Of a stretch of DNA of 37,638 nucleotides, positions 8,016-33,162 are shown in pieces. This DNA is from Sedimentisphaerales bacterium. Lineage in GTDB: Bacteria > Planctomycetota > Phycisphaerae > Sedimentisphaerales > Anaerobacaceae. Both the position numbers and the translations under genes were made by a program. The stretch's first letter is position 1. Each line of letters opens with the position of its first letter. The stretch covers positions 1 through 37,638 of the forward strand of contig JANQFY010000010.1 in the NCBI GenBank assembly GCA_028277585.1, in the 5' to 3' direction. The notes under the pieces are model-generated. The model saw only the letters and a program-made list of their open reading frames with translations, was not told the DNA's origin and made no database searches.

Positions 8016-9872
8016 TCACAGCTTGCGGCGGGCTGCCCGACGCCGGTCCACTTCCTTGAGCAGTCGCTTGCGAATCCGAATCGACTGGGGACAGACCTCC
8101 ACCAATTCATCCTGTTGGATATACTCCAGGCACACTTCCAGGCTCATGACCCGGGGCGGCCGCACGCGGGCTGCGTCGTCTTTGCTGGACGTGCGAATGT
8201 TCGTCAGTTGCTTGGCTTTGCTCGCGTTGACGGGAATGTCCTTGTCCTTGCAGTGCTCACCGACGACCTGGCCCTCGTACACTTCCTCGCCCGGCTTGAC
8301 GAAGAACGCACCGCGATCGTACAGGGCGTCGAGCGCGTAGGCCGTCACGGTCCCCGTGTCCGTGGCGACCATCACGCCCGCCTGACGCTCCGGAATCGAA
8401 CCGCGCATCGGCTCGTACCGCTCGAACGTATGGTGCATCACCGCCCTGCCCTGGGTGGCCGTCAGCAGCCGCGCATTGAGCCCGAACAAACCCCGCGCCG
8501 GGATCATGAACTCCATATGCACATAGTCATTGACGCCGGCCTTGGAGTCCATCTTGACCATCTCGCTGCGCCGGTTGCCGATCAGGCTCATCACCGCGTT
8601 CTGACAGTCGGCCGGGCACTCGATCACCAATCGCTCTATCGGCTCCTGGCGCAACCCATCCTTTTCGCGGATGATCACCTGCGGTTTGCCCACGCAGACT
8701 TCATACCCTTCACGCCGCATGTTCTCCAGCAAGATGCCCAGGTGCATGAGCCCCCGCCCTGAGACGACATACTCATCGGCGGTCTGGCCCGATTCGACTC
8801 GTAGCGCGACATTGGTCTGAAGCTCCTTGGCCAGACGCTCCTTGACCTGCAGCGCGGTGACGAACTTGCCCTCGCGACCCGCGAACGGACCGTTGTTGAC
8901 ATAGAACGTCATGCTCATCGTCGGCTCATCGATCGCCACGATGGGCAGGGCGCTCGGCTCGTCCGGGCAGGCGATCGTGTCGCCGATGTCCACCGGATCG
9001 AGACCGGCCACCGCGCAGATGTCCCCGGCTCGCACGGTCGTCGCCCGTTGCTTACCAAGCCGATCGAACTCGTACAACTGCACCACCTTCTGCTGCGTGT
9101 GCCTGCCCTGCTTGTCGATCACCGTGACCGGTTGGGCTTGTTGCGCCTGGCCCGCAAAGACCTTGCCGATCGCTACCCGCCCGACATAATCGGAATACTC
9201 CAGCGTGGTCACCAGCATCTGGAGCGGTTGATCAGGATTGGCCTGCGGCGCCGGAACGTGCTCGATGATGGCGTCGTAGACGGGCTTGAGATTGTCGTTG
9301 GGCTGGCCCAAATCGGTGGTTGCCCAGCCTTCCTTGGCCGAGGCGAAGAGCACGGGAAAATCCAACGCGTCGTCATTCGCCCTCAGGTCGACGAAGAGGT
9401 CGAACACCTCGTCGACCACATCGTCCGGGCGTGCGTCGGTCCGGTCGGCCTTGTTGACGACGAGGATCGGCTTGAGCCCGTGCTGAAGGGCCTTGCTCAA
9501 TACGAACCGCGTCTGCGGCATGGGCCCCTCGAAGGCATCGACCACCAGCAGGACCCCGTCGGTCATCTTCAGAACCCGCTCGACCTCCCCGCCGAAATCG
9601 GCGTGGCCCGGCGTATCGACGATGTTGATCTTGTACTCGTTGCCTTCATCGTCGGCGCACTGGATCGCACAATTCTTGCTCAGAATCGTGATCCCCCGCT
9701 CCCGTTCGAGCGGGTCCGAGTCCATAATCAGGTTGTGCTGGCCGCCCGCGAGCTTGTCCAGCTCCTCGTTGCGGAACATCCCCGACTGGTACAGGAGTTG
9801 GTCGACCAGCGTCGTCTTGCCATGGTCGACATGGGCGATAATCGCCACGTTGCGTATCGTATCTGCGTACAT
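8016..9872 (-). CDS. typA: Ribosome-associated translational GTPase TypA/BipA
   Basis: 618 residues, close to the usual 600-615. The G domain shows G1 AHVDHGKTT near residue 15, G3 DTPGHADF and G4 NKADR. EF-Tu domain 2 follows, then the elongation-factor III/V-like domains and the TypA C-terminal region, including the typical [41 protein letters not shown] and SIRIRKRLL. TypA is a GTPase that binds the 70S ribosome at the A-site face and supports growth at low temperature or under stress and late 50S assembly. The start ATG (9870-9872) has a GAAGGAA site about 9 nt upstream. It is a core gene without visible operon partners. Confidence 0.96.
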
Positions 9873-23051: not shown

Positions 23052-23406
23052 GGGGGCGAATGGCTTCGACCGGATGATGGATGGTCAAGTTGCATGCCCA
23101 GGACGCCGGTTGGCCTGGTTAATCATCCGGCACCTTAATTTGTAAATGGCAACTCACAGTTGCGCATGGCGGCCTAAAGAGGCCTCCCGTCCTGTCAGAC
23201 CGCGCCTGCGGGTTTGATAAGGGCGCCAATCAGCGGGCTTAGCCGCATCGAACGTCCGGGGCGATGAGGTGAAACTCAACCGGAATAGCCGATCCCAGAG
23301 CCTGTCGCTCGGCGCCGGGTGACGCGAAATCCCAATAGAACGACTAAGCATGTAGACGCTTGTCTTGAAGCATCTCGGGACGGGGGTTCGAATCCCCCCG
23401 CCTCCA
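23052..23406 (+). ncRNA. ssrA: Transfer-messenger RNA (tmRNA)
   Basis: One-piece tmRNA of about 355 nt. The 5' end GGGGGCGAATGGCTTCGAC is the family hallmark. The 3' end holds the T-arm GGGGGTTCGAATCCCCC and the acceptor strand CGCCTCC, which pairs with the 5' GGGGGCG (one G-U) and is followed by discriminator A; the CCA is not encoded. The tag reading frame lies at 23148-23177 and reads GNSQLRMAA then TAA, if GGC is the resume codon (AAT just before is an alternative). Such tags mark stalled nascent chains for proteolysis after trans-translation with SmpB. The 3' end doubles as the integration site for the element that follows. The integrase gene is read antisense through the 3' part of this RNA. 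Confidence 0.95.
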
Positions 23407-24722
23407 GTAGGTCTTCCCGTCGGGACTTGTCCTGAGCCGTTTGGGCCCGTCTCGGCAGGAAGACCAGCCATTGCATGTTCCCCCTTACCCCTCTGCTGTG
23501 CCCCGAGACGGCTCGGTACCACTCCAGAATGTACCGTCCGTTGTACCGTCGTGGCGCTATCGGCCGGCGTCTGCAACGCCCTCTCGAAGTCACTGTCTCT
23601 GATCTGCAAATAGTGGCGAGCGGCGATTGACTGGGAATTGCCGATCCAATCGCACACGACGTGCAGCGGGTGCTCCTCGCAGAGTTCCGTCTCTCTGCTG
23701 CTGCGGAGATTCTGGAACAGCCTAGGCCATGGCTCTAGGCCCGCCCTCTTCAGGATCTTCAAGAGCCGCGTCCTCAAATTGACGTTGCTCTGCCTGTACC
23801 TCGTGATGACATGCGTGCTGCCCGGTTCAGCCCGTTCGAAGACCTCGCGAAGGTACGGCTCGATCTCAGGGAAAAGCGGAATGACTCGGGTTGCCTTGCC
23901 TTCGTGATGCGCGGTCTTGCTCGAGTGGATCGTCAGCCGACCCCGATCCCAATCCACATCGTCCCAAGTCAATGCCAGATGCTCAGAGGGACAGCGAAGG
24001 CCCCCATAACGGCTCAGAGCGAAGATCAGACGCCACTGCGCGTCAGGGCAATGCTCGATTACTCGCGACGACTTCTCACGATCAACGAAGAACTGCCGTG
24101 ACACATTGCTTATCGATGTCGACTTCAAGCCCAGAAACGGATTCACTGCGATCAGCCGCCGTCTGACCGCGGCATCAAAGTACATCTTCGCATGCCCTGT
24201 CCGCTTGTGGACCGTCGCCGGGCTCAATCCCTCCCGCTTGAGGTATCGTTGCCACTGCTGGGCGTCGTACTCGTTGACGTCCTGTACGGCCTTCTCCCGA
24301 CCGAAGAACTCAATCAAGTTTCGGCGACTGTGACCATACACAAGCAAGCTGCCCGCCTTCAGGTCGTCTCGGTCCTCGAAGTATCCGTCCAGGAAGTCTC
24401 CCAGACGAACCACCGGCTCAGACTCTTGCTCGGGCTCTGGCGCCGCCTCTGGGGCCGTCCTGGGCTCTGCAAGACCCACTCGGACGAATCGGTCGTAGAT
24501 CTTCGGGGGGCGTTCCTGTAGCCATGATTCGGCAAGCGGATCAAGGGTCCCGATTTCTTTGGCCCGAAACAACCGTTCGGCCATGGTCTTCGCGGTAGCT
24601 AGTTCCTCTTTGTTGACGGCACCAAGACGAATGGTCCGACGTCGCCCGTCGTGGGGATCCGTGAACAGAAGTCGCTTGTAGACCGTGCCGTCTTTGCCAA
24701 CGTATGTGCCAATGCCAGCCAC
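23154..24722 (-). CDS. int: Tyrosine recombinase/integrase whose gene crosses attL
   Basis: 522 residues from the GTG at 24720-24722, two bases after the stop of the RHH gene, with GGAGGG 7 nt upstream; a TTG at 24773 is a poorer start. The N-terminal core-binding domain is at about 110-210 (LGDFLDGYFEDR, AQQWQRYLKREGLSPATVHKR). The catalytic domain has Arg I in YGGLRCPSEHLALTW, box II as QNLRSSRETEL in place of HxLR, and DWIGNSQSIAARHYLQ with the nucleophile Tyr371. Residues 440-443 (GGGG) lie in the att core. Residues 444-522 are antisense to tmRNA. The chromosome-encoded tail is thus not the element's own. In the excised circle the frame continues into 32958-33149 instead, giving 506 residues. 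The catalytic residues are unaffected. Confidence 0.92.
   Translation of the reverse strand: MAGIGTYVGKDGTVYKRLLFTDPHDGRRRTIRLGAVNKEELATAKTMAERLFRAKEIGTLDPLAESWLQERPPKIYDRFVRVGLAEPRTAPEAAPEPEQESEPVVRLGDFLDGYFEDRDDLKAGSLLVYGHSRRNLIEFFGREKAVQDVNEYDAQQWQRYLKREGLSPATVHKRTGHAKMYFDAAVRRRLIAVNPFLGLKSTSISNVSRQFFVDREKSSRVIEHCPDAQWRLIFALSRYGGLRCPSEHLALTWDDVDWDRGRLTIHSSKTAHHEGKATRVIPLFPEIEPYLREVFERAEPGSTHVITRYRQSNVNLRTRLLKILKRAGLEPWPRLFQNLRSSRETELCEEHPLHVVCDWIGNSQSIAARHYLQIRDSDFERALQTPADSATTVQRTVHSGVVPSRLGAQQRGKGEHAMAGLPAETGPNGSGQVPTGRPTGGGGIRTPVPRCFKTSVYMLSRSIGISRHPAPSDRLWDRLFRLSFTSSPRTFDAAKPADWRPYQTRRRGLTGREASLGRHAQL
23387..23406. other. attL: attachment-site repeat at the 3' end of ssrA
   Basis: TCCCCCCGCCTCCA (23393-23406) is repeated exactly at 33149-33162. 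Extending left to TTCG gives 18 of 20 matches. It covers the T-loop/acceptor strand of tmRNA, a classic tyrosine-integrase target, so ssrA stays intact after insertion. Confidence 0.88.
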
Positions 24723-24723
24723 G

Positions 24724-24918
24724 TCACTTGCCCTCCAGTAGTGCTTCCAGTTTGTCCCGGACCCATGCCGCAAGCGTCTTGCCGTCTCGCTTCGCAGCCC
24801 TCTCGATCTTCTCGCACAACGCCGGCTTCACCCGAAACGTGAGTTGAATACTTCGTGCTTCGCCTTCAGGCTTTGGCCGTCGACCCATCTTCGTTGCCTT
24901 CTTCTTTCGCTTGCTCAT
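24724..24918 (-). CDS. Ribbon-helix-helix DNA-binding protein
   Basis: 64 residues from the ATG at 24916-24918. The N terminus is very basic (MSKRKKKATKMGRRPKP). The RHH core follows: RSIQLTFRVKPALCEKIERA then KTLAAWVRDKLEALLEGK, with a strand and two helices typical of CopG/Arc-type dimers. No Shine-Dalgarno sequence is present, but the predicted transcription start falls on the ATG, so the mRNA may be leaderless. Its TGA is followed after one base by the integrase GTG, so the two are translationally linked. It probably regulates its own promoter, where a perfect palindrome covers the -35 box. No toxin partner is adjacent. Confidence 0.8.
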   Translation of the reverse strand: MSKRKKKATKMGRRPKPEGEARSIQLTFRVKPALCEKIERAAKRDGKTLAAWVRDKLEALLEGK

Positions 24919-24924
24919 AAGTGA

Positions 24925-24956
24925 ACCATACACGCACAGATATTGACTGTCAATAT
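24925..24956 (-). promoter_or_regulatory. Promoter and palindromic operator of the RHH-integrase unit
   Basis: On the minus strand, TTGACA (24948-24953), a 17-bp spacer and TATGGT (24925-24930). A perfect palindrome ATATTGAC-T-GTCAATAT (24940-24956) covers the -35 box. The start would be at about 24918, i.e. at the RHH ATG. The core TGACTGTCA recurs at 30944-30952. Confidence 0.7.
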
Positions 24957-24960
24957 ATTT

Positions 24961-25155
24961 TCAGGAGGTCTTTGCGGCCTGAATCCACTTTCGGACATCG
25001 ACTGGGTCGTACATCTTGCGGCGCCCAATTCGAACAGCCGGCAGTCGGCCTTCTTTTGTCTCACGATACAGTTTTGATTCGCTGAGCCGTGTCGCAGACA
25101 AGGTTTCTCTGACAGTCCACAACAGTGGTTCAATCGTTTCGTTTCTGGCAATCAT
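24961..25155 (-). CDS. MerR/AlpA-like helix-turn-helix protein (excisionase or regulator)
   Basis: 64 residues; the ATG at 25153-25155 follows AAGGA. The fold is that of the HTH_17/AlpA family: a helix-turn-helix near the N terminus (LSATRLSESKLYRETKEGRLPAVRIGRR) followed by MYDPVDVRKWIQAA. Small proteins of this type serve as excisionases or as activators of integrase in P4-like satellites. It sits just before the RHH gene in the same direction. The gap (24919-24960) contains the RHH promoter, so the two are separately controllable. Confidence 0.8.
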   Translation of the reverse strand: MIARNETIEPLLWTVRETLSATRLSESKLYRETKEGRLPAVRIGRRKMYDPVDVRKWIQAAKTS

Positions 25156-25169
25156 CCGTCCTTGTCTCC

Positions 25170-25673
25170 TTATCCAAACAATGCAGTCGGCGACGTTGCC
25201 ATCTTGAAGTAGCCGCCAATCTTGGAGCGCTTCGCCGCCTTCTTCATTCGTTTGGCCTCACGCAGCAACGCCTGCTGTTTGATCCGTGCCTGGGTCAATG
25301 TCCTCTGGATATCCTCGTCGACCTTGTCCGCCGTCTCGGCCAGGACGCTCAAAGGTGAACCACTCAACTCCGAACCGCTCTTGCCAAACGCGACGCGCTG
25401 CTCGCCCATGAGATCGTCGCCCGCCCGGCCGATGTCGATCGCCTGGAGGAAGCCTTGCTCCAGCGTTTGAGCGGCTCGACGTTCAAGGGTTTTCGCATTA
25501 TCCCGCTGCATCGACGCTTTCGAGAAATCAGCCAAGCCGTCGAAGACGCCCGACGCGATGTTCAGGCCGCTGGAAATCGGGCCGAGCATCGAGCCGAACC
25601 CGCCAGCGCCGCCCCCCGTCGGCATCATCTCGATCTTGCCTGTACTCTGATTGAAAACGTTCATTGCTGACAT
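25170..25673 (-). CDS. Podovirus-type ejection (internal virion) protein homologue
   Basis: 167 residues; the ATG at 25671-25673 is preceded by GAGGTGAC. The N terminus is Gly/Ser-rich and hydrophobic (MLGPISSGLNIASGVFDGL). It is followed by a long helical Ala/Gln/Arg-rich region with the phrase GEQRVAFGKSGSELSGSPLSVLAETA and a basic helical end (LLREAKRMKKAAKRSKIGG). That phrase and arrangement are characteristic of T7 gp14-like and related internal virion proteins, which form part of the channel that ejects DNA. It is the only virion-like gene in the element, which is odd for a replicating element without a capsid. The assignment comes from recognition only. Confidence 0.65.
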   Translation of the reverse strand: MSAMNVFNQSTGKIEMMPTGGGAGGFGSMLGPISSGLNIASGVFDGLADFSKASMQRDNAKTLERRAAQTLEQGFLQAIDIGRAGDDLMGEQRVAFGKSGSELSGSPLSVLAETADKVDEDIQRTLTQARIKQQALLREAKRMKKAAKRSKIGGYFKMATSPTALFG

Positions 25674-25801
25674 ATGTCACCTCGTTTCAGATTTCAAAGT
25701 TGGGGCCGGCCGACGAGGCGCGACCCCTTAGCGAAACGTCTTTCAAATGGGCCGCCCCGCGACCTGAGAGCAGAGCAGCCCCGACGGGCTCGGCACCCGT
25801 C

Positions 25802-25975
25802 TTAACACCTATGCAGCCCCCCAACGTATTTCCCATTTTCGTAAACAGCTCCGCGATTCATAAAGAACAGCTTTTCGGGGTCATCGTCCGGCGACCTGGC
25901 GTAGACCTCGGGCGAATGGGGATACGCCGGGTAGCGCTCTTCGACGGCGTCTTCTTGGTGGTCGTTTTCAAGCAT
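25802..25975 (-). CDS. Small acidic protein of unknown function
   Basis: 57 residues with an excellent ribosome-binding site (AAGGAGAT, 6 nt before the ATG at 25973-25975). The N-terminal half is rich in Glu, Asp, His and Pro (MLENDHQEDAVEERYPAYPH). The end reads FFMNRGAVYENGKYVGGLHR. The length and spacing fit the small genes flanking it in the same leftward unit. No family is recognised; the ribosome-binding site and the lack of overlap support it being real. Confidence 0.65.
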   Translation of the reverse strand: MLENDHQEDAVEERYPAYPHSPEVYARSPDDDPEKLFFMNRGAVYENGKYVGGLHRC

Positions 25976-26029
25976 CGTAATCTCCTTCAGAATGTCACTT
26001 GATGTTCGTTCGCATCATTATGCGTGATG

Positions 26030-26473
26030 CTATTGCGGCACGTTTTCCCTGATATCCTTCTTCTTGGGGGAGCCCGCGGGATCCACCACGACCTGAGTCT
26101 CACCCTCTTTCCGCCGCTCGAGCTGCGCCGCGTGTTCGGCGATGATCGTGTCCACCAGCTGATTCAAGGCGGGCTTGAGTCCCCGTTCCAGCTCAGTGAC
26201 GACGTCCCAGCTCTCCTCTGCCTCAATTTCCACCTCGGCGTCAATCGCCCCAACCGGAGGGATGAGCGCTTCCATTCGCGCCACCGTGACAATGCCCACC
26301 AGTTCCTCCTTTGCGTTTCGCTTCTGCCGGGCTTCAGTGAGTCGCATCGCCACGGCCCGTACTTTCTGAAGCGATTGTATCTTCACGCCACCTGCCCGCG
26401 CCTCAGCTTGAGCTTTGAGCAATCGCCCCCTCGCTGTCGTTGGCTCATTTTCCGTGAATTCGTAGGTCGTCAT
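26030..26473 (-). CDS. Element protein, larger of a tandem paralogous pair
   Basis: 147 residues from the ATG at 26471-26473 (AAGGAG about 9 nt upstream; a GTG three codons earlier is possible). The N-terminal part is helical (ARGRLLKAQAEARAGG). The middle is a beta-rich segment with acidic residues (AEVEIEAEESWDVVTELERG). Then comes LKPALNQLVDTIIAEHAAQL and a charged tail. The ELERGLKPALNQLVDTI part matches ELTEAVKPAVNQLIDRI in the next upstream gene, so they are paralogues. No recognised family. Confidence 0.6.
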   Translation of the reverse strand: MTTYEFTENEPTTARGRLLKAQAEARAGGVKIQSLQKVRAVAMRLTEARQKRNAKEELVGIVTVARMEALIPPVGAIDAEVEIEAEESWDVVTELERGLKPALNQLVDTIIAEHAAQLERRKEGETQVVVDPAGSPKKKDIRENVPQ

Positions 26474-26515
26474 GTCACGCACTCCTTAAACTGATTACTG
26501 CTGCGATGTCACTGT

Positions 26516-26836
26516 CTACTTGTTCGCGAGTCGCGATTCGCACTCGCTCACAATCCTGTCAATCAGCTGATTTACGGCCGGCTTGACTGCCTCGGTCAGC
26601 TCCTGAGTTACGTCCCAGCCCGGCTCGCATCGAAGGTCGACCTCGGCCAGGATCGGGCCGCATTCGCCGTGGACCTGCATCTCAAGCGTAGACGTCACGC
26701 CGTCACTGGTTTGGCGATCGTTCAATATACGCAGAGACAACGTGGTCACCTTTCTGCGTTGTCTCGCCTCGGCTTCTCGAATTAGCCTTTTTGCGCGCCC
26801 GGTGACTGGTTGATACGGTCGCTGTTCGTACTTCAT
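26516..26836 (-). CDS. Element protein, smaller of a tandem paralogous pair
   Basis: 106 residues; the ATG at 26834-26836 follows AAGGAG. A basic helical N terminus (GRAKRLIREAEARQRRK) leads into a beta-rich centre (LSLRILNDRQTSDGVTSTLE, ILAEVDLRCEPGWDVTQEL) and VKPAVNQLIDRIVSECESRL. It shares this layout with the gene at 26030-26473. Both could be two copies of one DNA- or protein-binding module; function is unknown. Confidence 0.6.
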   Translation of the reverse strand: MKYEQRPYQPVTGRAKRLIREAEARQRRKVTTLSLRILNDRQTSDGVTSTLEMQVHGECGPILAEVDLRCEPGWDVTQELTEAVKPAVNQLIDRIVSECESRLANK

Positions 26837-26866
26837 CGCGTCACTCCTTGAATCATAATATCCGTG

Positions 26867-27139
26867 TCACGCCATCCCACACGAGCAGTTCAAGCGTCGG
26901 ACCTCTTCTCGCGCCCGATCGGTCCGCTCTTTGCACATGCTTCTTTCCAGTTCTTCTTTGAACCATTCGCCCAGTGATCTGAGGCACGCCGGGCAGATGA
27001 GCCTTTTCGTCAGCTGGTGACCCACCGGGATGATTGCCCAATCGCTGGGTGGGCGGTCTGTGTCTCCTCGCGATACCCATTGCTCGTCCTCATGTTTGAA
27101 TTTACATCGGTCACATTCCCAAATCTTGTGTAGCGACAT
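26867..27139 (-). CDS. Small zinc-ribbon-like protein
   Basis: 90 residues from the ATG at 27137-27139; a GTG at 27166 would overlap the primase gene. It has two CxxC knuckles, CDRC at about residues 9-12 and CPAC at about residues 49-52, followed by a helical, charged segment and CSC near the end. This could bind zinc. It lies directly after the primase gene and may take part in replication or its control, which is inference from position. Confidence 0.6.
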   Translation of the reverse strand: MSLHKIWECDRCKFKHEDEQWVSRGDTDRPPSDWAIIPVGHQLTKRLICPACLRSLGEWFKEELERSMCKERTDRAREEVRRLNCSCGMA

Positions 27140-27155
27140 TTGCTTCGTGCTCCTA

Positions 27156-29015
27156 TCAGGTTTCACTTGTCTCGTTCTTGCGAAGGATCAGACCCTCGCA
27201 GTCGAATTTCAGTTGCGGCGGTGTGTCGGCTGTGCGCTGGTAGAAGTTCAACGCCAGTCGCTTACCGTCTCCGTTGCCGTTTCTTGCGGCCAGGATGTGC
27301 AAGGTTCGGTTGCTTGAGACCATGGCACGCCCGCACTCCTTCAGCACGGTGACATCCTTGGGGTCGTGCTTCTCCAGCCACAGCACGGTTTGCGTGAACC
27401 GCACCCAGGCTGTCGAGCCGGCCAGGGAATCCAGGGAGATTACTGTGCTGCTGCCTTTCGTGGGGTGGGTTGCCAGGACAACGCTAATCCCGCGGCGTCG
27501 GGCGAGTCGCTTCAGCTCATTAACGAAAGATGTGTCGGCCTTCCACTGGGAGTCTCCCTGTTTTGCGGCGGTGATCGGGTCCACGACCACAATGCGACAC
27601 CCCTCCTGCGCCCTGGTGTCTACCCAGGTGAGGATGTCAGGCAGTGACATCTCCGCATCCGGGGAATCCCATATCGCCCGCCCAAGCCTGTCGATGTCCT
27701 GTGCGTGAGCGGCATGAATCCTCCGGGCCTCCTCGGCGTTGGCGCGAATCCACTTCGACTTCGTGATCTGAGGTGTGTCACCCAGCTGGGCGAGACATCG
27801 CAGGAGGGCATGGTTCACGTCCTCCTCGAGCAAGAGCATCGCGCATCTCAAACCCAGAGTCAGCACCCAGAAGATCAAGTTACCCAGACAGAAGAACGTT
27901 TTGCAGACTCCCTTGGGGCCGCACAGTGTCACGACACTACCGGGCAATAAGGCCTCAGTCAGACGGCTGAGTTCGCGGTGCACCCATTCGACAGCGGTCC
28001 GTCGACCGTCAATGGTCGCGGCCAACAGGTTGCCTAGTGACGCCGATGGGCTGTCTGTGCTCTTGGAATTCTGATGAGCCCGGGCCGACCTACGGTCCTC
28101 ATGGAGCTTGCATCCGCGGGGCTTGACAGACGGACTGCGCTGGGCGCTCTCGAACGCCTGTCGCAATTCCGCTTCGGGCAATGGCGGATTGTTGCTGCCG
28201 TTCCAGTCGGCCAGGATGTTCCACGCTTCGCCGGCGTCGAGGTCGAAATCGTTCTGGAGCTTCTTGGCGTGCTTAAACGCGGCGTCGTTGCGCTCCCCTT
28301 GACTCACTCCAGGGCACTTCGCCAGGTACAGCGCGGCGCGGCCTCGGGCCTCGAGGTAGTTCGTCTTCCTGGCCTCGCGGGGCACCGGTTGCGTCTCCGG
28401 CTTCGGAAGGGTCTTGAGCTTGGCGGCAAAGTCGGTCAGGTCGACACGATGATCAGGGTCGGCGGCAATGATTCGGCACGGTACAGGATCGGACTTCACG
28501 TTGTCGAAACCGGGCAGCCTCATCACCCGTTCGGCGTTGATGACTTTCCCATCTGAATCCAGCGTGTGCGCCAAGCGGGCCTGTAGGGCGCGGAAGGTCT
28601 TAGGGTCGGTCGGCGCCGTGAGTCGCCAGTACGCATGAATTCCATGGCCGCTGTGAACCAGCAACGTCGGCCAGGGGAGCCCCGCGGCGTTGATCCGCTC
28701 GAGCACGATATCCTCCATGCGATCGGGGTCCAGGCCGTCAAAATCCGCGAACAGGCAGCGGCACACCTGAACGTTCTCGTCGCCGCTCTTGCCCTCCGCG
28801 ATACGCGGGTTGGCGCCGACGTAGACGTTCCAGCCCTGCTGATTCGGGGCGCCCAGGGTCGCTTGTGCGTCCGCCAGGGTGTTCGCCTGATACCAGAGCT
28901 TGCGACTTTCAGTCTTGCCGTCTCCTCGCTTTCGCAACGTGCGGATCTCAACCCAATCGTTGGGCTCAAAGACGCACTGGACATATTGCTCGATTGGATT
29001 CACGGTCAGTTCCAT
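27156..29015 (-). CDS. Replication protein: primase-like N-terminal domain plus RecA-like ATPase
   Basis: 619 residues. Residues about 65-220 resemble RepB/AEP-type primase domains: VCRCLFADFDGLDPDRM (acidic metal site), TLLVHSGHGIHAYWRL, then MRLPGFDNVKSDP. The C-terminal half is a RecA/AAA_25-type ATPase with Walker A GPKGVCKT (Cys in place of the usual Gly), ALLLEEDVNHA and Walker B CRIVVVDPI. The later segment ISVVLATHPTKGS fits the sensor strand. Similar two-domain proteins replicate phages, satellites and plasmids. The start (29013-29015) overlaps the end of the upstream replication gene by 10 bp, so the two are coupled. The unusual Walker A residue should be tested for ATPase activity. 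Confidence 0.82.
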   Translation of the reverse strand: MELTVNPIEQYVQCVFEPNDWVEIRTLRKRGDGKTESRKLWYQANTLADAQATLGAPNQQGWNVYVGANPRIAEGKSGDENVQVCRCLFADFDGLDPDRMEDIVLERINAAGLPWPTLLVHSGHGIHAYWRLTAPTDPKTFRALQARLAHTLDSDGKVINAERVMRLPGFDNVKSDPVPCRIIAADPDHRVDLTDFAAKLKTLPKPETQPVPREARKTNYLEARGRAALYLAKCPGVSQGERNDAAFKHAKKLQNDFDLDAGEAWNILADWNGSNNPPLPEAELRQAFESAQRSPSVKPRGCKLHEDRRSARAHQNSKSTDSPSASLGNLLAATIDGRRTAVEWVHRELSRLTEALLPGSVVTLCGPKGVCKTFFCLGNLIFWVLTLGLRCAMLLLEEDVNHALLRCLAQLGDTPQITKSKWIRANAEEARRIHAAHAQDIDRLGRAIWDSPDAEMSLPDILTWVDTRAQEGCRIVVVDPITAAKQGDSQWKADTSFVNELKRLARRRGISVVLATHPTKGSSTVISLDSLAGSTAWVRFTQTVLWLEKHDPKDVTVLKECGRAMVSSNRTLHILAARNGNGDGKRLALNFYQRTADTPPQLKFDCEGLILRKNETSET

Positions 29016-29698
29016 CCCATCGCCCTCCGATGTTGCTCGGCCTCTTCGTCGGTAGCTTCGCGCGTGCCGGGTTCGGGCTCAGCGGTCTTGGTCAACTTGG
29101 GCTCCCAGGTAGACAGATACTTCTGCTTCCAGGATCTGACGGGATTGCCCTTGGAGTCCTTCCAGTTGTTGGCGGCGTAAAAATCCACGAATCGCTGAGC
29201 GTCGAAACCGGGATACCCTCGGGAGGTGGCATAGGCTCTGACTTCGGCCAGTGTCGGTGGGGTGAATCTCTTGCGCGCTCTCTTACTCTGAATGCTTCTT
29301 GAACTATTCTCTCCTGAGGAGCGGGAGTTTTCTTCCGCAGAATCGGGAGTCTTATCGCCTTCCAAAAGTCCTGAGGAGCGGGAGTTTTCAGGCTCGTTAA
29401 AGTCCTGAGGAGCGGGAGCTTTAGGAAGGAGCACGGAGTAGCGACTTGCATGCCCGCGACCCGGCCGCCCTGATGTCTTTGTCAGGAGTCCGGCCTCGGC
29501 GAGGTTTGCTGTCGCCCGGTCGACGGTGTCCTGGGAAATGCCCAGGTCAGCGCCGATCGTCTTGACCGATGGCCACGTGTAGGAATTCCGCCCTTGACGA
29601 TAGGCTAGGTATGCCAAGACCAGCTTGTCAGCCGGCGTCAGCTTGGGCCTCACTGTCCGTGCGGCGTCCATCGCGACCAGGAAGAGGGGTTTACTCAT
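29006..29698 (-). CDS. O-like/DnaD-like replication initiator with winged HTH
   Basis: 230 residues from the ATG at 29696-29698, overlapping the preceding stop as ATGA. The N-terminal winged HTH is at about residues 20-90 (LTPADKLVLAYLAYRQG, WPSVKTIGADLGISQDTVDRATANLAEAGLL). A Ser/Glu/Pro-rich linker (about 92-135) contains the repeated peptide ENSRSSG. The C-terminal part (TLAEVRAYATSRGYPGFDAQRFVDFYAANNW) resembles DnaD/phage replisome-organiser domains that recruit helicase. The linker DNA carries iteron-like repeats, as in lambda gene O. The role is probably origin recognition and delivery of the primase-ATPase. Confidence 0.75.
   Translation of the reverse strand: MSKPLFLVAMDAARTVRPKLTPADKLVLAYLAYRQGRNSYTWPSVKTIGADLGISQDTVDRATANLAEAGLLTKTSGRPGRGHASRYSVLLPKAPAPQDFNEPENSRSSGLLEGDKTPDSAEENSRSSGENSSRSIQSKRARKRFTPPTLAEVRAYATSRGYPGFDAQRFVDFYAANNWKDSKGNPVRSWKQKYLSTWEPKLTKTAEPEPGTREATDEEAEQHRRAMGWN
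29312..29423. repeat. Iteron-like repeats, candidate replication origin
   Basis: Three copies of TCCTGAGGAGCGGGAG(Y)TTT begin at 29312, 29369 and 29403. A degenerate fourth shares CGGGAG at 29344. The CGGGAG cores are 22, 35 and 34 bp apart. They lie in the linker region of the replication-initiator gene, the arrangement seen in the lambda O origin. Confidence 0.65.
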
Positions 29699-29904
29699 CG
29701 CGACCCTCCCCGGGCAAGCCCCTCATTGGCGGCACGCTTCAGGAGGGCCCGCTGGACGGCGACGGTGTTGAAGAGAACGCGACCGTGTGCGTTGATGTGA
29801 GGAAGGCGACCGGCTTCCGCCTCCGCGATGAGCCATTCCGCGGGGATGCGCAAGACATGCGCCAGGCGGATGGGACTTACAAGTTGTTCTCTGTTAGCAG
29901 TCAT
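29695..29904 (-). CDS. Small helix-turn-helix protein, excisionase-like
   Basis: 69 residues from the ATG at 29902-29904; a GTG one codon earlier is possible and no ribosome-binding site is obvious. The HTH is VSPIRLAHVLRIPAEWLIAEAEAGRLPHINAHGRVLFN, the DNA-binding domain plan of MerR/Xis-like proteins. The gene's TGA overlaps the start of the replication initiator (ATGA), so it heads the replication operon. It may act as excisionase or as operon regulator; a palindrome at 29907-29922 lies directly before it. Confidence 0.7.
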   Translation of the reverse strand: MTANREQLVSPIRLAHVLRIPAEWLIAEAEAGRLPHINAHGRVLFNTVAVQRALLKRAANEGLARGGSR

Positions 29905-29906
29905 CA

Positions 29907-29922
29907 CGTAGCGAATGCTACG
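29907..29922. promoter_or_regulatory. Palindrome upstream of the Xis-like gene
   Basis: CGTAGC-GAAT-GCTACG is a perfect 6-bp inverted repeat with a 4-bp centre, just before the start codon. It could be an operator for the replication operon. Confidence 0.5.
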
Positions 29923-29938
29923 CGATTCTCTGCGTCTT

Positions 29939-29971
29939 TAGGGGCCAACTAAGGGCCAATTAGGGGCGGTC
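29939..29971. repeat. Three 11-bp tandem repeats
   Basis: TAGGGGCCAAC, TAAGGGCCAAT and TAGGGGCGGTC follow one another at 29939-29971. The 11-bp period is close to one helical turn, so one face of the DNA would present identical sites. They lie between the Xis-like gene and the end of the upstream gene. Confidence 0.6.
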
Positions 29972-29972
29972 C

Positions 29973-30785
29973 TTAACGTCTCGCTACGGTCCTTCCTGAT
30001 TCCGTGAGTGCAACACCCTTTCGAGGTGTCGCGGGGTCTCGCGCCACCAGCCCCTTGTCGATTAGACTATTCACAACCCCCTTGACGGTAGTCTCAGACC
30101 GACGGAACCTCTTCACTTTCAGTGCCGCAACTACCTGCGGATTGGTGGTCAACGTGTCCCGCTCATCCAAAACGAAGAGCACTTCCATCTCATCGTCGGT
30201 CACAGGAACGTTCGGGGGCACAACGTCACGCTCAACCCGCCTCCACGCATCGGTCACCATCGCCGGCCCCGCGGGACTGTCCAGCACGGCGCCCAGATCC
30301 ATCATAAACCGCCGCAAATCGAAGTCGGGATAGATCGCCTTGAGGTCGTCGAAGAGTGAGCGTTGCCCAGGGGTGGTCGGTAAGCGCCTCGTATTCTTCG
30401 CGTACACCCGCCACAAGAGCATACAATCGCGGGCCCGATCCTGTTTGTCTGTCACGTGCTCGAGGATATGGCGTTTGGCCGTCGCCTTTACCGGGCTGTA
30501 TGGTGTTACCAGATCGGCGCCGATGCCAAAGGCCCCGCAAGGGTGGCAAAGGTCGATCGGTCGCCACTCGCCTTGACATGTCGAGGGTAGGTAGGCGTGA
30601 TCGGTATCCGATACAGTCATGTGATCATTGGCGCCGGCGGGCGGAAGGTGCCGCTCTTCGGCCAGCTTCCCAATCGCTTCTCCGTACTCCTTCACCCATC
30701 GCATGAAGTACTTGCAGCCGTCCTCGAAGAACTCAGGGACCCGGCTCCAGGCCGCTACGATCTCGCGTTTGAGTGCGTCGTCCAT
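29973..30785 (-). CDS. Unknown protein with C-terminal winged-helix domain
   Basis: 270 residues from the ATG at 30783-30785, preceded by CAGGA. The frame runs on to 30836 but has no better start. The N-terminal half is unfamiliar, with Cys and His scattered (CKYFMRWVKEYGEAIGKLAEE, PIDLCHPCGAFGIGADLVTP). The C terminus (about 190-270) is a MarR/Lrp-like winged helix: VTDDEMEVLFVLDERDTL, VVAALKVKRFRRSETTVKGV, VNSLIDKGLVARDP. It may be a regulator of the element. It is the first gene of the leftward set and has a TTGACA promoter element that shares the RHH palindrome core. Confidence 0.6.
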   Translation of the reverse strand: MDDALKREIVAAWSRVPEFFEDGCKYFMRWVKEYGEAIGKLAEERHLPPAGANDHMTVSDTDHAYLPSTCQGEWRPIDLCHPCGAFGIGADLVTPYSPVKATAKRHILEHVTDKQDRARDCMLLWRVYAKNTRRLPTTPGQRSLFDDLKAIYPDFDLRRFMMDLGAVLDSPAGPAMVTDAWRRVERDVVPPNVPVTDDEMEVLFVLDERDTLTTNPQVVAALKVKRFRRSETTVKGVVNSLIDKGLVARDPATPRKGVALTESGRTVARR

Positions 30786-31617
30786 CGCGATATCCTGAAA
30801 GAACCACCCCCGGGGTTTGCGATGAAAACAGGCCAACGAAATGATGGCGCATTTTCCCCCGGGGGCGGTCTCTGCTCGAATTGGTTGTGCTGCAAAATCG
30901 TACCTGTTTCCATCGCACCTTCAAGCCTACATCCGCATTGTCGTGACTGTCAAGGTGTGACGCGAAATTCCTCAGGGCTGGTATCGCCAGGAAGGCAAAA
31001 AGACAGCCAGGAATGGGGTCGACTGTATGAACTTGGCAGTAAGAATCTCGGTACATGACATGCCGGGGGAGATATCCCCTGTGTATAGCCTCCGCAGCGG
31101 GTGCGGTCCCTTCCAGCTACCTATGCTGCGGGGGCTCATTTCATGAGAGAGTGTAGCTTACCTAACTTCACACGGAGGGAAGTGAGAATATACATATGGC
31201 CGCCGAAGCGCAAATTCCCCCGACGGGAGTCCCGGAGCGGGTCCCCTTTTGAGGCCTTCGAATCCCTGAAATAGTCCGTCATGGACCCGAACACCCTGGG
31301 TTTTCAGACTGTGAGGGCCGATTCTCTGGAGAACGCGCCACAATGCGGCGCGCGGGCTGCTTCGAGGCCCCGGATCTGCACCGCCTGAGAGCGTCCGGTG
31401 CCACAGTTGGAGCACGCGGAGAAGAAAGACCACGTTACCATCCTCACCCCTTCCAAACGCTAAATCGCATTCATAGACCGCATACGCGAGACTGGAGGGG
31501 TGATTCTGTCTGCATTCACAGAGTCTGTCTTGCCGTCTTGTGGAGCCCTGGGACTCGGTTTGCCGATGGAAGGAACAGAGACTTACGCGATGCGTTCAAT
31601 TCAGAAAGGTGCGAGAC
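30786..31617. other. Divergent intergenic region of about 830 bp
   Basis: It separates the winged-helix gene (-) from a zinc-ribbon gene (+). Visible: TTGACA (30948-30953 on the minus strand, within TGACTGTCAA) and an inverted repeat CTCAT-TTC-ATGAG near 31135-31147. No credible ORF is seen. The region is unusually long for this compact element and may hold control sites or an RNA. Confidence 0.45.
30944..30953 (-). promoter_or_regulatory. TTGACA element sharing the RHH operator core
   Basis: The plus-strand sequence TGACTGTCAA is identical to the centre of the palindrome at 24940-24956. On the minus strand it supplies a -35 hexamer, TTGACA, about 160 bp upstream of the start at 30785. This suggests joint control by the RHH protein. 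Confidence 0.4.
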
Positions 31618-32001
31618 ATGGCAGACGATCAGGTTCAGTTCTTATCCGACGGCGCCCGAAGACTGTTCGAATGGATTGCCTCCCCAGAAAGGCGTGGGCA
31701 GCGACTCAAGTTTGAGACCGCATGCAAAGCACTCAAAGTCACCGACCGTGAACTGAAAGCAATGCTCGAGGAGCTGGAGCATTACCAAGGGTTGAACTGC
31801 CGCCCTCCGATTGAGAAGATCGAGTATGGAGGCATGTACGCTGAGTACGGCTTCCACGTCAGCATTGAAGCGAATCGAGCCTGGGCTGCCTACCAGGATC
31901 TGGAGAGGGAACACGCATGCCCTGAGTGTGGCAAACAGGCACTTGAGAAGGTCACCGTGATTCGCTGTCGGAAGTGTTCGTACAAGCGTGAGATCAGGTA
32001 G
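31618..32001 (+). CDS. Small protein with C-terminal zinc ribbon
   Basis: 127 residues from the ATG at 31618; AAAGGTG lies 7 nt upstream. It is the only plus-strand gene in the element. The N-terminal half is helical (FLSDGARRLFEWIASPE, FETACKALKVTDRELKAMLEEL) and looks like a winged-helix or HTH. The C terminus is a zinc ribbon, CPECGKQALEKVTVIRCRKCSY. Such an HTH plus zinc-ribbon composition suggests a nucleic-acid-binding regulator. No family is recognised. Confidence 0.65.
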   Translation: MADDQVQFLSDGARRLFEWIASPERRGQRLKFETACKALKVTDRELKAMLEELEHYQGLNCRPPIEKIEYGGMYAEYGFHVSIEANRAWAAYQDLEREHACPECGKQALEKVTVIRCRKCSYKREIR

Positions 32002-32016
32002 CCCTACTCAGGGCCC

Positions 32017-32081
32017 GGGCAATAGTTAACTTGCAGGTTTTCAGGGGGGTGCTACCCGTGGTACCCATTAACTATCGCCCC
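32017..32081. terminator. Bidirectional terminator-like inverted repeat
   Basis: GGGCAATAGTTAA (32017-32029) and TTAACTATCGCCCC (32068-32081) pair over nearly all positions and enclose a smaller hairpin GGGT-GCT-ACCC. It lies between two convergent genes. A U-run is not evident, so the role is inferred from position. Confidence 0.45.
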
Positions 32082-32086
32082 ACGTC

Positions 32087-32620
32087 CTAGAGCAGAATGG
32101 CGGCCTTCTCGCTGCTTCTGTGGCGCGTCTGAGACTGGTCTGAGCCCCTGTGATGGGAGCGGTCTGGTTTCTTTTGCTCATACCGATGCTTTGCCAGTTC
32201 TTTTCGCTGGTCTCGGCAAGTGTCGCAATACCGTCGTCGTCTCGGCATGGCCCGACCACATAGACATCGGCGTTTCGGATCAATCTCTGAGGACGTTGGC
32301 GCTGGCGTTGAGACCCGCGTGGTTGAACGGTCCTGCACCGCTTCTGCCTGGGCCGTCCTGGGTTCTGTTCGGCCTTCCATGCGGGATGGTGGGAAGACTT
32401 GGCCATGCGTTGCGGGCTCGACGGGTGGTAGCCTCAGGCAGTCCAGGCACAACAGGTGCTTTCTACCGGCCGCGTACATGGGCTTCTTGGAGGGCCATCC
32501 GTTGCAGCCTCGCTCACCATGTCCAGGGCCGTAGAACTCGGCGCAATCGTAGCACACTTCATGCACGGCGAATGCGTGTTTCAGTTCCTTGCCGAAGTCT
32601 CGGAATCGTTGGAGTTTCAT
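32087..32620 (-). CDS. Cysteine-rich protein of unknown function, right-end operon
   Basis: 177 residues from the ATG at 32618-32620 (GAGGA upstream), overlapping the stop of the preceding small gene as ATGA. A Cys cluster lies at about residues 20-65 (VCYDCAEFYGPGHGERGC, LLCLDC). A Pro/Arg/Glu-rich middle leads to a second cluster CLCGRAMPRRRRYCDTC near residue 125 and a basic tail. The pattern suggests one or two zinc-binding modules. In the integrated state the gene has no visible promoter; in the circle it is downstream of the integrase. Confidence 0.6.
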   Translation of the reverse strand: MKLQRFRDFGKELKHAFAVHEVCYDCAEFYGPGHGERGCNGWPSKKPMYAAGRKHLLCLDCLRLPPVEPATHGQVFPPSRMEGRTEPRTAQAEAVQDRSTTRVSTPAPTSSEIDPKRRCLCGRAMPRRRRYCDTCRDQRKELAKHRYEQKKPDRSHHRGSDQSQTRHRSSEKAAILL

Positions 32621-32787
32621 CGATTGTCCTCGTCGTAGCTCTGCGCCAGACGGGCGGCGTAGGTTTCCAGTAGTCTGCTGAACTGCCGGCGGTGGAGATC
32701 CAGGCACGCTTGGCCCTGCTCGAGCGTCAGGTTGTGGTCAGTGACCAGGTCGATCCATTCGGTTTCAAACTCGTCCTTGAGATTCAT
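32617..32787 (-). CDS. Small helical protein of unknown function, right-end operon
   Basis: 56 residues; the ATG at 32785-32787 follows GGGAG. It reads as one or two charged helices (MNLKDEFETEWIDLVTDHN, ARLAQSYDEDNR). Its start lies within the end of the preceding gene (23-bp overlap), and its TGA overlaps the next ATG. This tight packing supports a real operon. Confidence 0.6.
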   Translation of the reverse strand: MNLKDEFETEWIDLVTDHNLTLEQGQACLDLHRRQFSRLLETYAARLAQSYDEDNR

Positions 32788-32977
32788 CGACTCCCTCGGG
32801 AATGAATGGATGCTCGGCGCAGATCTCCGCTGCTTGGTGAATCACTTCGCGCTCCTGCTGCCAGGCCCACGCGGCAATGGCGGCCCACTGCCCGCTTGTC
32901 AGGCCGATCTTGTTGGCCAACGCGTAGAGATCTCCCATCCAGACGGTAGGGGCTGGCTCAGTAGTCTCGATCGGCAT
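32765..32977 (-). CDS. Small protein of unknown function, first of the right-end operon
   Basis: 70 residues; the ATG at 32975-32977 follows GAGGG. Composition suggests a helical protein (WMGDLYALANKIGLTSGQ, WAAIAAWAWQQEREVI). Its start overlaps the end of the stranded integrase tail frame by 20 bp, so in the circular element it follows the integrase directly. Confidence 0.6.
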   Translation of the reverse strand: MPIETTEPAPTVWMGDLYALANKIGLTSGQWAAIAAWAWQQEREVIHQAAEICAEHPFIPEGVDESQGRV

Positions 32978-33161
32978 CGAAGCCCTCCCTCAGGATCGAC
33001 ATGATTCTCGCCTTGGTGGATTCGTGAAGGTCCAGCCAGCGGTCGATGAGTTCGGCCAGATCCGGGTCTGAAGTACCGTCCGCTGTGCCGTTTTCTGTCA
33101 CTTCGTGCCGATTGGGCCTCTCGGTGAAGAATTCTGCAGAGTTTCGCGTCCCCCCGCCTCC
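32958..33161 (-). pseudogene. Stranded integrase C-terminal coding segment (in frame across attR)
   Basis: From attR the minus strand stays open in the integrase frame: GGGG from the core, then TRNSAEFFTERPNRHEV, a charged linker, AELIDRWLDLHESTKARI and MSILREGFDADRDY before TGA (32958-32960). There is no start codon upstream within the chromosome; a stop is met at 33195-33197. The segment has no independent start except an internal ATG at 33000-33002. It is in phase with the integrase codon by codon over the 14-bp core. It is best read as the native 3' end of int, separated by integration. Confidence 0.75.
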
Positions 33162-33162
33162 A
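33143..33162. other. attR: attachment-site repeat at the right end of the element
   Basis: Contains TCCCCCCGCCTCCA (33149-33162), an exact copy of the acceptor-strand end of tmRNA at 23393-23406; 18 of 20 bases match when extended to TTCG. Confidence 0.88.

Follow-up and report, generated by a model that had tools for sequence, protein, structure and literature searches.

Integrases whose genes contain their own recombination site are known from few cases, of which that of the Myxococcus phage Mx8 is the closest to the locus described here. In Mx8, the attachment site of the circular form (attP) lies within the integrase gene, int, and integration gives int a new 3' end, according to PMC6070905. 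PMC4701971 adds that 112 C-terminal residues are replaced by 13 and that the integrated form is less active. The same source describes Streptococcus integrative and conjugative elements (ICEs) that reside in rumA and use a serine integrase; their right attachment site, attR, is found inside the integrase gene, and the excised form differs in length and C-terminus. In the 'suicidal' archaeal integrases of the SSV type, integration divides the gene, leaving its start apart from the catalytic part, as stated in PMC8371274. Finally, the Islander database permits integrases that extend over attP, and PMC4383910 names Mx8 and SSV as such cases.

Here we analyze a stretch of 37,638 nucleotides from Sedimentisphaerales bacterium (assembly GCA_028277585.1, contig JANQFY010000010.1), hereafter called the window, in which an integrative element occupies the transfer-messenger RNA (tmRNA) gene ssrA and its tyrosine integrase gene crosses the left attachment site, attL. 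The likeness to the Mx8 pair IntP/IntX is a tyrosine integrase with attP in int and an exchanged C-terminus. The rumA elements differ in their recombinase, which is of the serine type, and in their target, a protein gene; the enzyme in the window is a tyrosine recombinase, and its target is an RNA gene. SSV-type integrases also carry a recombination site within the integrase gene, but the catalytic part stays whole here. An earlier note on this DNA, made from the sequence alone, had drawn the SSV comparison, in which the catalytic part is cut off, and did not mention the Mx8 precedent. As in Islander islands, the target is restored and the displaced fragment lies at the far end; att-crossing integrases are exceptions there, whereas they are the usual state in the integrase family studied here. 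No description of this integrase class was found in the literature, as judged by titles and abstract openings, with subscription journals mostly uncovered. The principle is known from Mx8; what is new is a class that is widespread in one phylum and has its own conserved, swappable C-terminal domain.

Integration site and the two forms of the integrase gene

The 9.76-kb element sits in ssrA, flanked by two exact copies of a 14-bp core, TCCCCCCGCCTCCA, one of which forms the final 14 bases of the whole ssrA gene that adjoins the element (Table 1). The locus thus has the parts of a tRNA/tmRNA genomic island, namely a whole RNA gene at one end, a displaced 3' fragment at the other and an integrase within. 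A clean empty site was not found in four congeners with ssrA, where the region downstream of ssrA did not align, except for one 34-bp match (82%) in congener L218.

The catalytic domain PF00589 is recognized in the integrase with 40.5 bits against a cut-off of 27.1, which places the protein among the tyrosine recombinases/phage integrases. On the minus strand, the integrated frame runs from a GTG at 24722 (the earliest possible start being a TTG at 24773) to a stop at 23154-23156, and the residues after the core are translated from antisense ssrA. In the circle, the frame would instead end at the TGA 32958-32960, giving 506 residues from the GTG or 523 from the TTG. About 79 codons follow the core in the integrated form and 63 in the circle. 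The core is at about residue 440, downstream of Tyr371 in the motif ARHYLQ, which is the same in both forms and which we take to be the nucleophile from its position and motif. The His of the HxxR box is a Gln in the window (FQNLR) and a His in one relative (FHNLR). The catalytic part is whole in both forms, in contrast to the suicidal SSV-type integrases, and the core lies within int, 3' of the catalytic tyrosine, as in the Mx8 type. The replacement of the native C-terminal segment upon integration, the other mark of that type, is read here from the sequence, and the uninterrupted form is seen in a distant relative.

These frames agree with those of the earlier note, which had described an integrase crossing attL to end in antisense tmRNA (79 codons, in an ORF of 522 residues) and continuing across attR for 63 codons (506 residues). 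The exact core repeat that it reported also stands; the core-to-core offset of 9756 (3 x 3252) being a multiple of three carries no weight, because a shared core preserves the frame at any spacing. Because an open frame alone is weak evidence, we compared the integrase with its relatives, and the case for a tail swap rests on that comparison.

Tails at attR and frame matching

For each integrase, we screened as much as 40 kb of sequence toward the element for another copy of either the int 3' end or the tRNA end, and a repeat of at least 14 bp was present at the far end in 19 of 37 sequences, the window among them. In nine of these 19, again including the window, the int frame passes the right core into a similar tail, here termed class I. 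The profile A1, built from these nine tails as chosen by eye and having an invariant L, W, and L, was run against 392 genomes of the phylum. It matches 109 of them with an E-value of at most 0.01, a count that includes the genomes from which the profile was made.

We tried 34 int-tail pairs, seven of which were reworked along with G238. In 31 pairs, a class-I tail match goes together with a shared core of 14 bp (as in the window) or more, and every one of these pairs is in frame across attR. They consist of 24 pairs from the first scoring, G238, whose frame was scored on the tRNA core as its longest repeat lay elsewhere, and six reworked pairs. Nine of the 31 defined A1, and four with weak tail scores (G286C19, G120b, G212a, and G344C18) were chosen with the frame in view. 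The other 18 were matched by position or by tail match; leaving aside G000b, which was chosen for peptide likeness, there are 17 independently chosen pairs, and all 17 are in frame, an outcome with a probability of about 8e-9 if frames were random (one in three). G212a, with its longest repeat beside the tRNA core, and G222c, with no tRNA called at the core, are both outside the 17. Pair G222f, which showed a 12-bp match at first and no shared core afterwards, was dropped. The claim of the earlier note that integration replaces the element's native tail with a tmRNA-antisense tail and keeps the catalytic part is supported by the 31 of 31 in-frame pairs, and is also backed by the conservation of the tail motif as protein and by the uninterrupted gene of a phage contig, both described below.

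G120a and G286b were left out of the 31 because they have no class-I tail; their frames continue into a second, shorter tail type, common to G120a, G120b, G212a, G286C19, and G286b (e.g. GGAQSDAITPAMAAVVGWLVSMPEG), which is without the W-P-L motif. G344C18 resembles neither type.

The positions of tails and integrases agree with this pairing. For 29 tails in 14 genomes, read by eye from among the matches listed, an integrase is found on the predicted side, on the same strand and within 80 kb in 23 cases, two of these pairings being doubtful (G222f, and one by a multi-copy integrase in G418), versus five cases on the wrong side. An antisense T-arm motif occurs upstream on the tail strand in 43 of 58 distinct tail loci, compared to 11 with the motif on the opposite strand and 7 downstream, and the frame from the motif to the tail is open in 39 of the 43. 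Two related tandem elements beside tRNA-Arg (G329:C39:70000-82500, L191) fit less neatly. Their integrases read the att region in different frames: the proximal integrase alone fits the proximal tail, and the distal integrase is out of frame with it.

In the window's own genome, an 8.5-kb contig (G000:C154, L141) carries two different tails about 250 bases apart, perhaps the stacked right ends of elements.

Relatives at attL

Using the integrase up to the core as query and a cut-off of E 1e-20, we searched 294 genomes of the phylum and found matches in 30, one of which is the genome of the window; 56 places are among the matches listed, one of them the window itself. The phylum is probably Planctomycetota, as such tails occur in planctomycete integrases and the window's genome has 19 PF07596 matches, most of them partial and weak. 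Thirty relative loci (L002, L006-L034) out of the 55 relative places listed were surveyed at attL. In 27 of the 30, counted by reading, the int ORF enters a tRNA gene called by ARAGORN on the opposite strand; the three exceptions are L013, which ends in a T-arm peptide with no called tRNA, L022, which is broken, and L034, which stops about 56 bases short. Ten more members of the family were examined; six of them end within a tRNA gene, and no tRNA was called for the remaining four, one of which runs off the fetched piece. Antisense T-arm peptides at the int ends take forms such as GFEPAT, GLEPVT, and IRTP. Since 27 of 30 loci and 6 of 10 further integrases enter tRNA genes, att-site crossing is, by these reading frames, the rule in the examined part of the integrase family, at many different tRNA genes. 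Relatives sought through peptide patterns in genome contigs and viral contigs (two and four matches) were all distant and were set aside.

The window's genome holds a second integrase of the family (G000:C532, L091), 53% identical, which runs into tRNA-Met. A tail on another contig (G000:C242, L140) shares a 16-bp core in frame with this integrase, so that these contigs may carry opposite ends of a single element. Elsewhere, ten same-strand integrases with open frames of 268-492 codons lie 32-118 kb apart in G461:C1 (~2.55-3.17 Mb), which could be a large array.

Putative arm-type sites

Direct repeats of 19-25 bp flank the core on both element sides in 11 of 13 elements, G238 and G333 being those without. 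One copy is located 77-137 bp into int; the outer end of the other is 59-77 bp into the tail. For the window, 200 shuffles gave no score as high as that of the repeat; in ten elements no shuffle equalled it, and in G355 one of 60 did. The repeat of the relatives often looks like two TGCG(C/T)(C/T)G units, of which GTACCGTCCGTTGTACCGT is the window version. We infer that these flanking repeats are arm-type integrase sites. The arm repeats account for the AAQNAAQ-like and GAESGA-like peptides that turn up repeatedly in linker and tail, and in G222a a single 25-bp repeat is translated in two frames. The helix motif of the tail lies past the arm repeat.

The tail as a protein domain

We aligned 52 distinct tails on a W with L or I three residues on. 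Positions that were not used for the alignment are conserved too: seven residues before the W, 50 of the 52 tails have an L, and eight residues past the W, 51 have an R or K. The tail motif reads L..[LIV][VIL]..WP.L[PS]..[VI][RK]..I, with hydrophobic residues in a helix-like spacing. Mismatches by codon position in the 52 tails are 0.51, 0.41, and 0.66, a codon pattern that is protein-like, as in a coding sequence under constraint. Modelled alone from a single sequence, the window tail is predicted to form a helix over residues 35-65, with a pLDDT near 90 in the best part.

The domain matches little in reference collections. Pfam gives nothing for the window tail, and its PHROG matches are weak (phrog_21251, E 0.0075; phrog_11531, an integrase family, E 0.046). 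NCBIfam has no match for the tail of one relative, and the tail profile reaches at best E 0.16 against solved structures. Named phages and plasmids yielded six and four weak integrase matches (24-31% identity); their best tail matches, at E 0.03 and 2, respectively, are not convincing.

A 70-codon ORF (32765-32977) has its ATG at 32977, within the coding end of the tail, and would overlap the int end in the circle.

An uninterrupted int-tail gene in a phage contig

A scan of IMG/VR with the tail pattern returned 31 contigs. One of them, 3300036717_000070 (49,364 bp), contains a single unbroken ORF of 533 codons that comprises, in this order, a Phage_integrase domain (E 2.4e-17), the T-arm-like antisense peptide GLEPT, and the tail. 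The fused gene is in the middle of the contig, between a primase/helicase gene and the genes for the small and large terminase subunits, and no whole tRNA gene was found in the surrounding 6 kb. This contig is what an unintegrated phage of such a design should look like. Four other pattern scans and one protein search did not give a second fused contig, and none of 20 fetched genome regions with long open frames at tail matches holds a fused int-tail frame, as scored with the family integrase profile. Two 445-codon ORFs, 7.3 kb apart, flank the fused gene (L189:903-2237 and 8228-9562), neither with a PHROG match.

Proposed tail exchange and alternative explanations

We consider it probable, at roughly 0.8, that as a whole attP lies in the 3' part of int, that integration swaps the native tail, and that excision restores it. 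In this mechanism, attP, made of the core and two putative arm sites, would sit in the 3' part of the element's own int, and the enzyme encoded in the circle would consist of its catalytic part, then a long linker and, at the C-terminus, a short helical domain. When the core recombines, this tail domain would be stranded at the far end (attR), and the integrated int would gain a replacement tail translated from antisense sequence of the target RNA gene. The enzyme's catalytic part would be unaltered, and excision would bring back the native tail. Support for such an exchange comes from the anatomy of the locus, from relatives in which the frames match, from the conserved tail motif, and from the one uninterrupted gene in a phage contig. 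The tail would act in the circle form, most likely by promoting or stabilizing the integrative complex, and its loss may bias the system toward the integrated state until an excisionase acts, as reported for Mx8. The earlier suggestion that the two forms differ in activity, stability or directionality and give a memory of the element's state is a reasonable inference in this light. We also propose, tentatively and with somewhat less than even odds, that the tail domain licenses integration, is lost on integration and is regained only by excision, and that tails reshuffle among integrase subfamilies within a genome. Because the tails sit at attR, they could be reshuffled between subfamilies as a common exchangeable pool.

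Several observations weigh against tail exchange. The circle of the window's element was not itself observed, and the integrase encoded by the single fused gene is a distant one. At least 63 open codons begin at 25% of the codon positions of the element and at 32% of those of the window (six frames); frame openness was dropped as evidence, being too weak at a chance level of 25%. Six of the 19 sequences with a far-end repeat run into a tail of another type, and in four (G295C1, G142, G222b, and G000C256, the last from a different integrase family) the circle frame stops early with no recognizable tail. As the tails were aligned on the W and the L or I three positions later, part of the conservation at these two sites is built in, and the 'GAESGA' part of the tail coincides with the arm repeat and may be conserved as DNA. 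The model of the tail alone is moderate (pLDDT 68), and that of the fused phage protein, of which the tail is the best-scored part, is too poor for use (mean pLDDT 36). Distances between integrases and those between tails are uncorrelated (Mantel r 0.06, p 0.34, n 20), also for 16 class-I pairs (r -0.15, p 0.76); by this comparison int-tail co-evolution shows no sign, though the tail is short and diverged. Tail likeness is 0.42 within a genome and 0.35 between genomes (p 0.013; 19 and 1307 pairs). This, and the closeness of three G222 tails to each other when one of their integrases matches the family profile with only E 3.7e-5, suggests that tails may be exchanged between integrases or elements, which the design would permit.

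Several of these points would be accounted for by a tail without a protein role, attP being placed in coding DNA for compactness and the frame being held open by the arm site and by base composition: the frequency of open frames of this length (25%), the recurring GAESGA peptide explained by the arm repeat, the negative Mantel test, and the four of 19 core-repeat elements without a recognizable tail. Nevertheless, the helix motif lies past the arm site, is shared by 52 distinct tails with a protein-like codon pattern and follows several integrase subfamilies, and the matching frame is found in 17 of 17 independent pairs, which makes a tail without a role distinctly improbable. We give hardly any credence to the idea that the tail is a separate small protein, e.g. 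a regulator, expressed from attR in the integrated state and only incidentally fused in the circle. Of 24 pairs, 11 do have an in-frame ATG, GTG or TTG between the core and the tail domain, but just two have an ATG there, and the other 13 lack any start codon; moreover, the frame fits int in the tested pairs, and the phage contig has the tail as the end of an integrase gene.

Other alternatives accept the exchange and assign it a different purpose. The replacement tail could be an active signal, with antisense residues that destabilize the integrated enzyme or an RNA that pairs with the target transcript. The integrated forms studied do end in antisense target sequence, with 6 to 47 residues from the core start among the in-frame pairs and 83 in the window, but their frames and lengths vary (GFEPAT, IRTP, REDSNL, and others) and no common peptide is visible, and we regard such a signal as improbable. 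The native tail could also block excision: newly made enzyme of the circle form would then be unable to run the reaction backwards, and excision would fall to the shortened form. The enzyme encoded in the integrated state, which would be needed for excision, is indeed without the native tail in the studied pairs. The shortened Mx8 enzyme, on the other hand, is reported as less active in PMC4701971, which favors a loss of activity over a gain, and we judge an excision block rather unlikely, if worth keeping in mind.

Tail exchange, the explanation that we prefer, brings the window close to Mx8 in design, and not in sequence. In the Mx8 record, Int contains a peptide resembling an antisense T-arm, STGLEPVL, some 115 residues from its C-terminus, and a small gene annotated as the excisionase Uoi lies directly upstream of int. 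Nevertheless, neither the tail nor the integrase is close, and Mx8 does not combine a homologous tail with a closely related integrase. The best match of the A1 tail profile to Mx8 Int is -0.8 bits, over residues 104-119 and not at the C-terminus. BLASTP gives no significant match between Mx8 Int and the window integrase (E 0.75), the family profile of the window integrase scores 10.6 bits over the N-terminal part of Mx8 Int, and Uoi does not align with the helix-turn-helix (HTH) gene of the window. A further difference is that the design recurs here across one phylum, with a single conserved tail behind several integrase subfamilies.

Within an integrase family of a single phylum, a design known from few cases, Mx8 above all, appears to be usual, and its defined domain is open to experiment. 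The design is relevant to the ways in which integrative elements might set direction while the catalytic part of the enzyme stays unaltered. It also matters for the annotation of integrated elements, in which such integrases receive a target-derived tail and the native C-terminal domain at the other end is missed; the tail profile is a practical marker for the right ends of elements in these genomes.

Other genes of the element

The features of the element and its target are listed in Table 1. Besides the integrase, which reads leftwards into the tmRNA gene, the element carries an HTH_17 gene, a primase/helicase gene, a replication-initiation-like gene, and a gene for an internal-virion-protein-like product.

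Table 1 Target gene, attachment sites, and genes of the ssrA element, with positions in the window.
Feature	Position	Strand	Evidence
ssrA (tmRNA), target gene	23052..23406	+	ARAGORN; Rfam RF00023 (23052-23409), 164 bits
attL core TCCCCCCGCCTCCA, within int ORF	23393..23406	+	exact repeat
Tyrosine integrase gene, integrated form, 522 residues, GTG start	23154..24722	-	PF00589 E 3.1e-10; phrog_1 E 3.7e-33
Putative arm-type site GTACCGTCCGTTGTACCGT, in int coding sequence, 124 bp from attL core	23531..23549	+	direct repeat with 33073-33091
Small gene directly upstream of int	24724..24933	-	weak NikA-like and HicB family matches, below curated cut-offs
HTH_17 small gene, weak AlpA match	24961..25155	-	PF12728 E 1.8e-8
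Internal-virion-protein-like gene	25170..25673	-	phrog_418 E 1.7e-13; PF24072 below its cut-off
Primase/helicase (RepB primase, PriCT-1, AAA_25 domains)	27156..29015	-	domain and PHROG matches
Replication-initiation-like protein (HTH_36; O-like PHROGs)	29006..29698	-	domain and PHROG matches
Native C-terminal tail, continuous with int only in the circle; domain DPDLAELIDRWLDLHESTKARIMSIL	32958..33148	-	TGA stop 32958-32960
Putative arm-type site GTACCGTCCGCTGTGCCGT, in tail coding sequence, 57 bp from attR core	33073..33091	+	direct repeat
attR core	33149..33162	+	exact repeat

The HTH_17 gene is a candidate excisionase gene. The internal-virion-protein-like product resembles gp14 of T7, and the rest of the element is small and replicative, as in a phage satellite or remnant.

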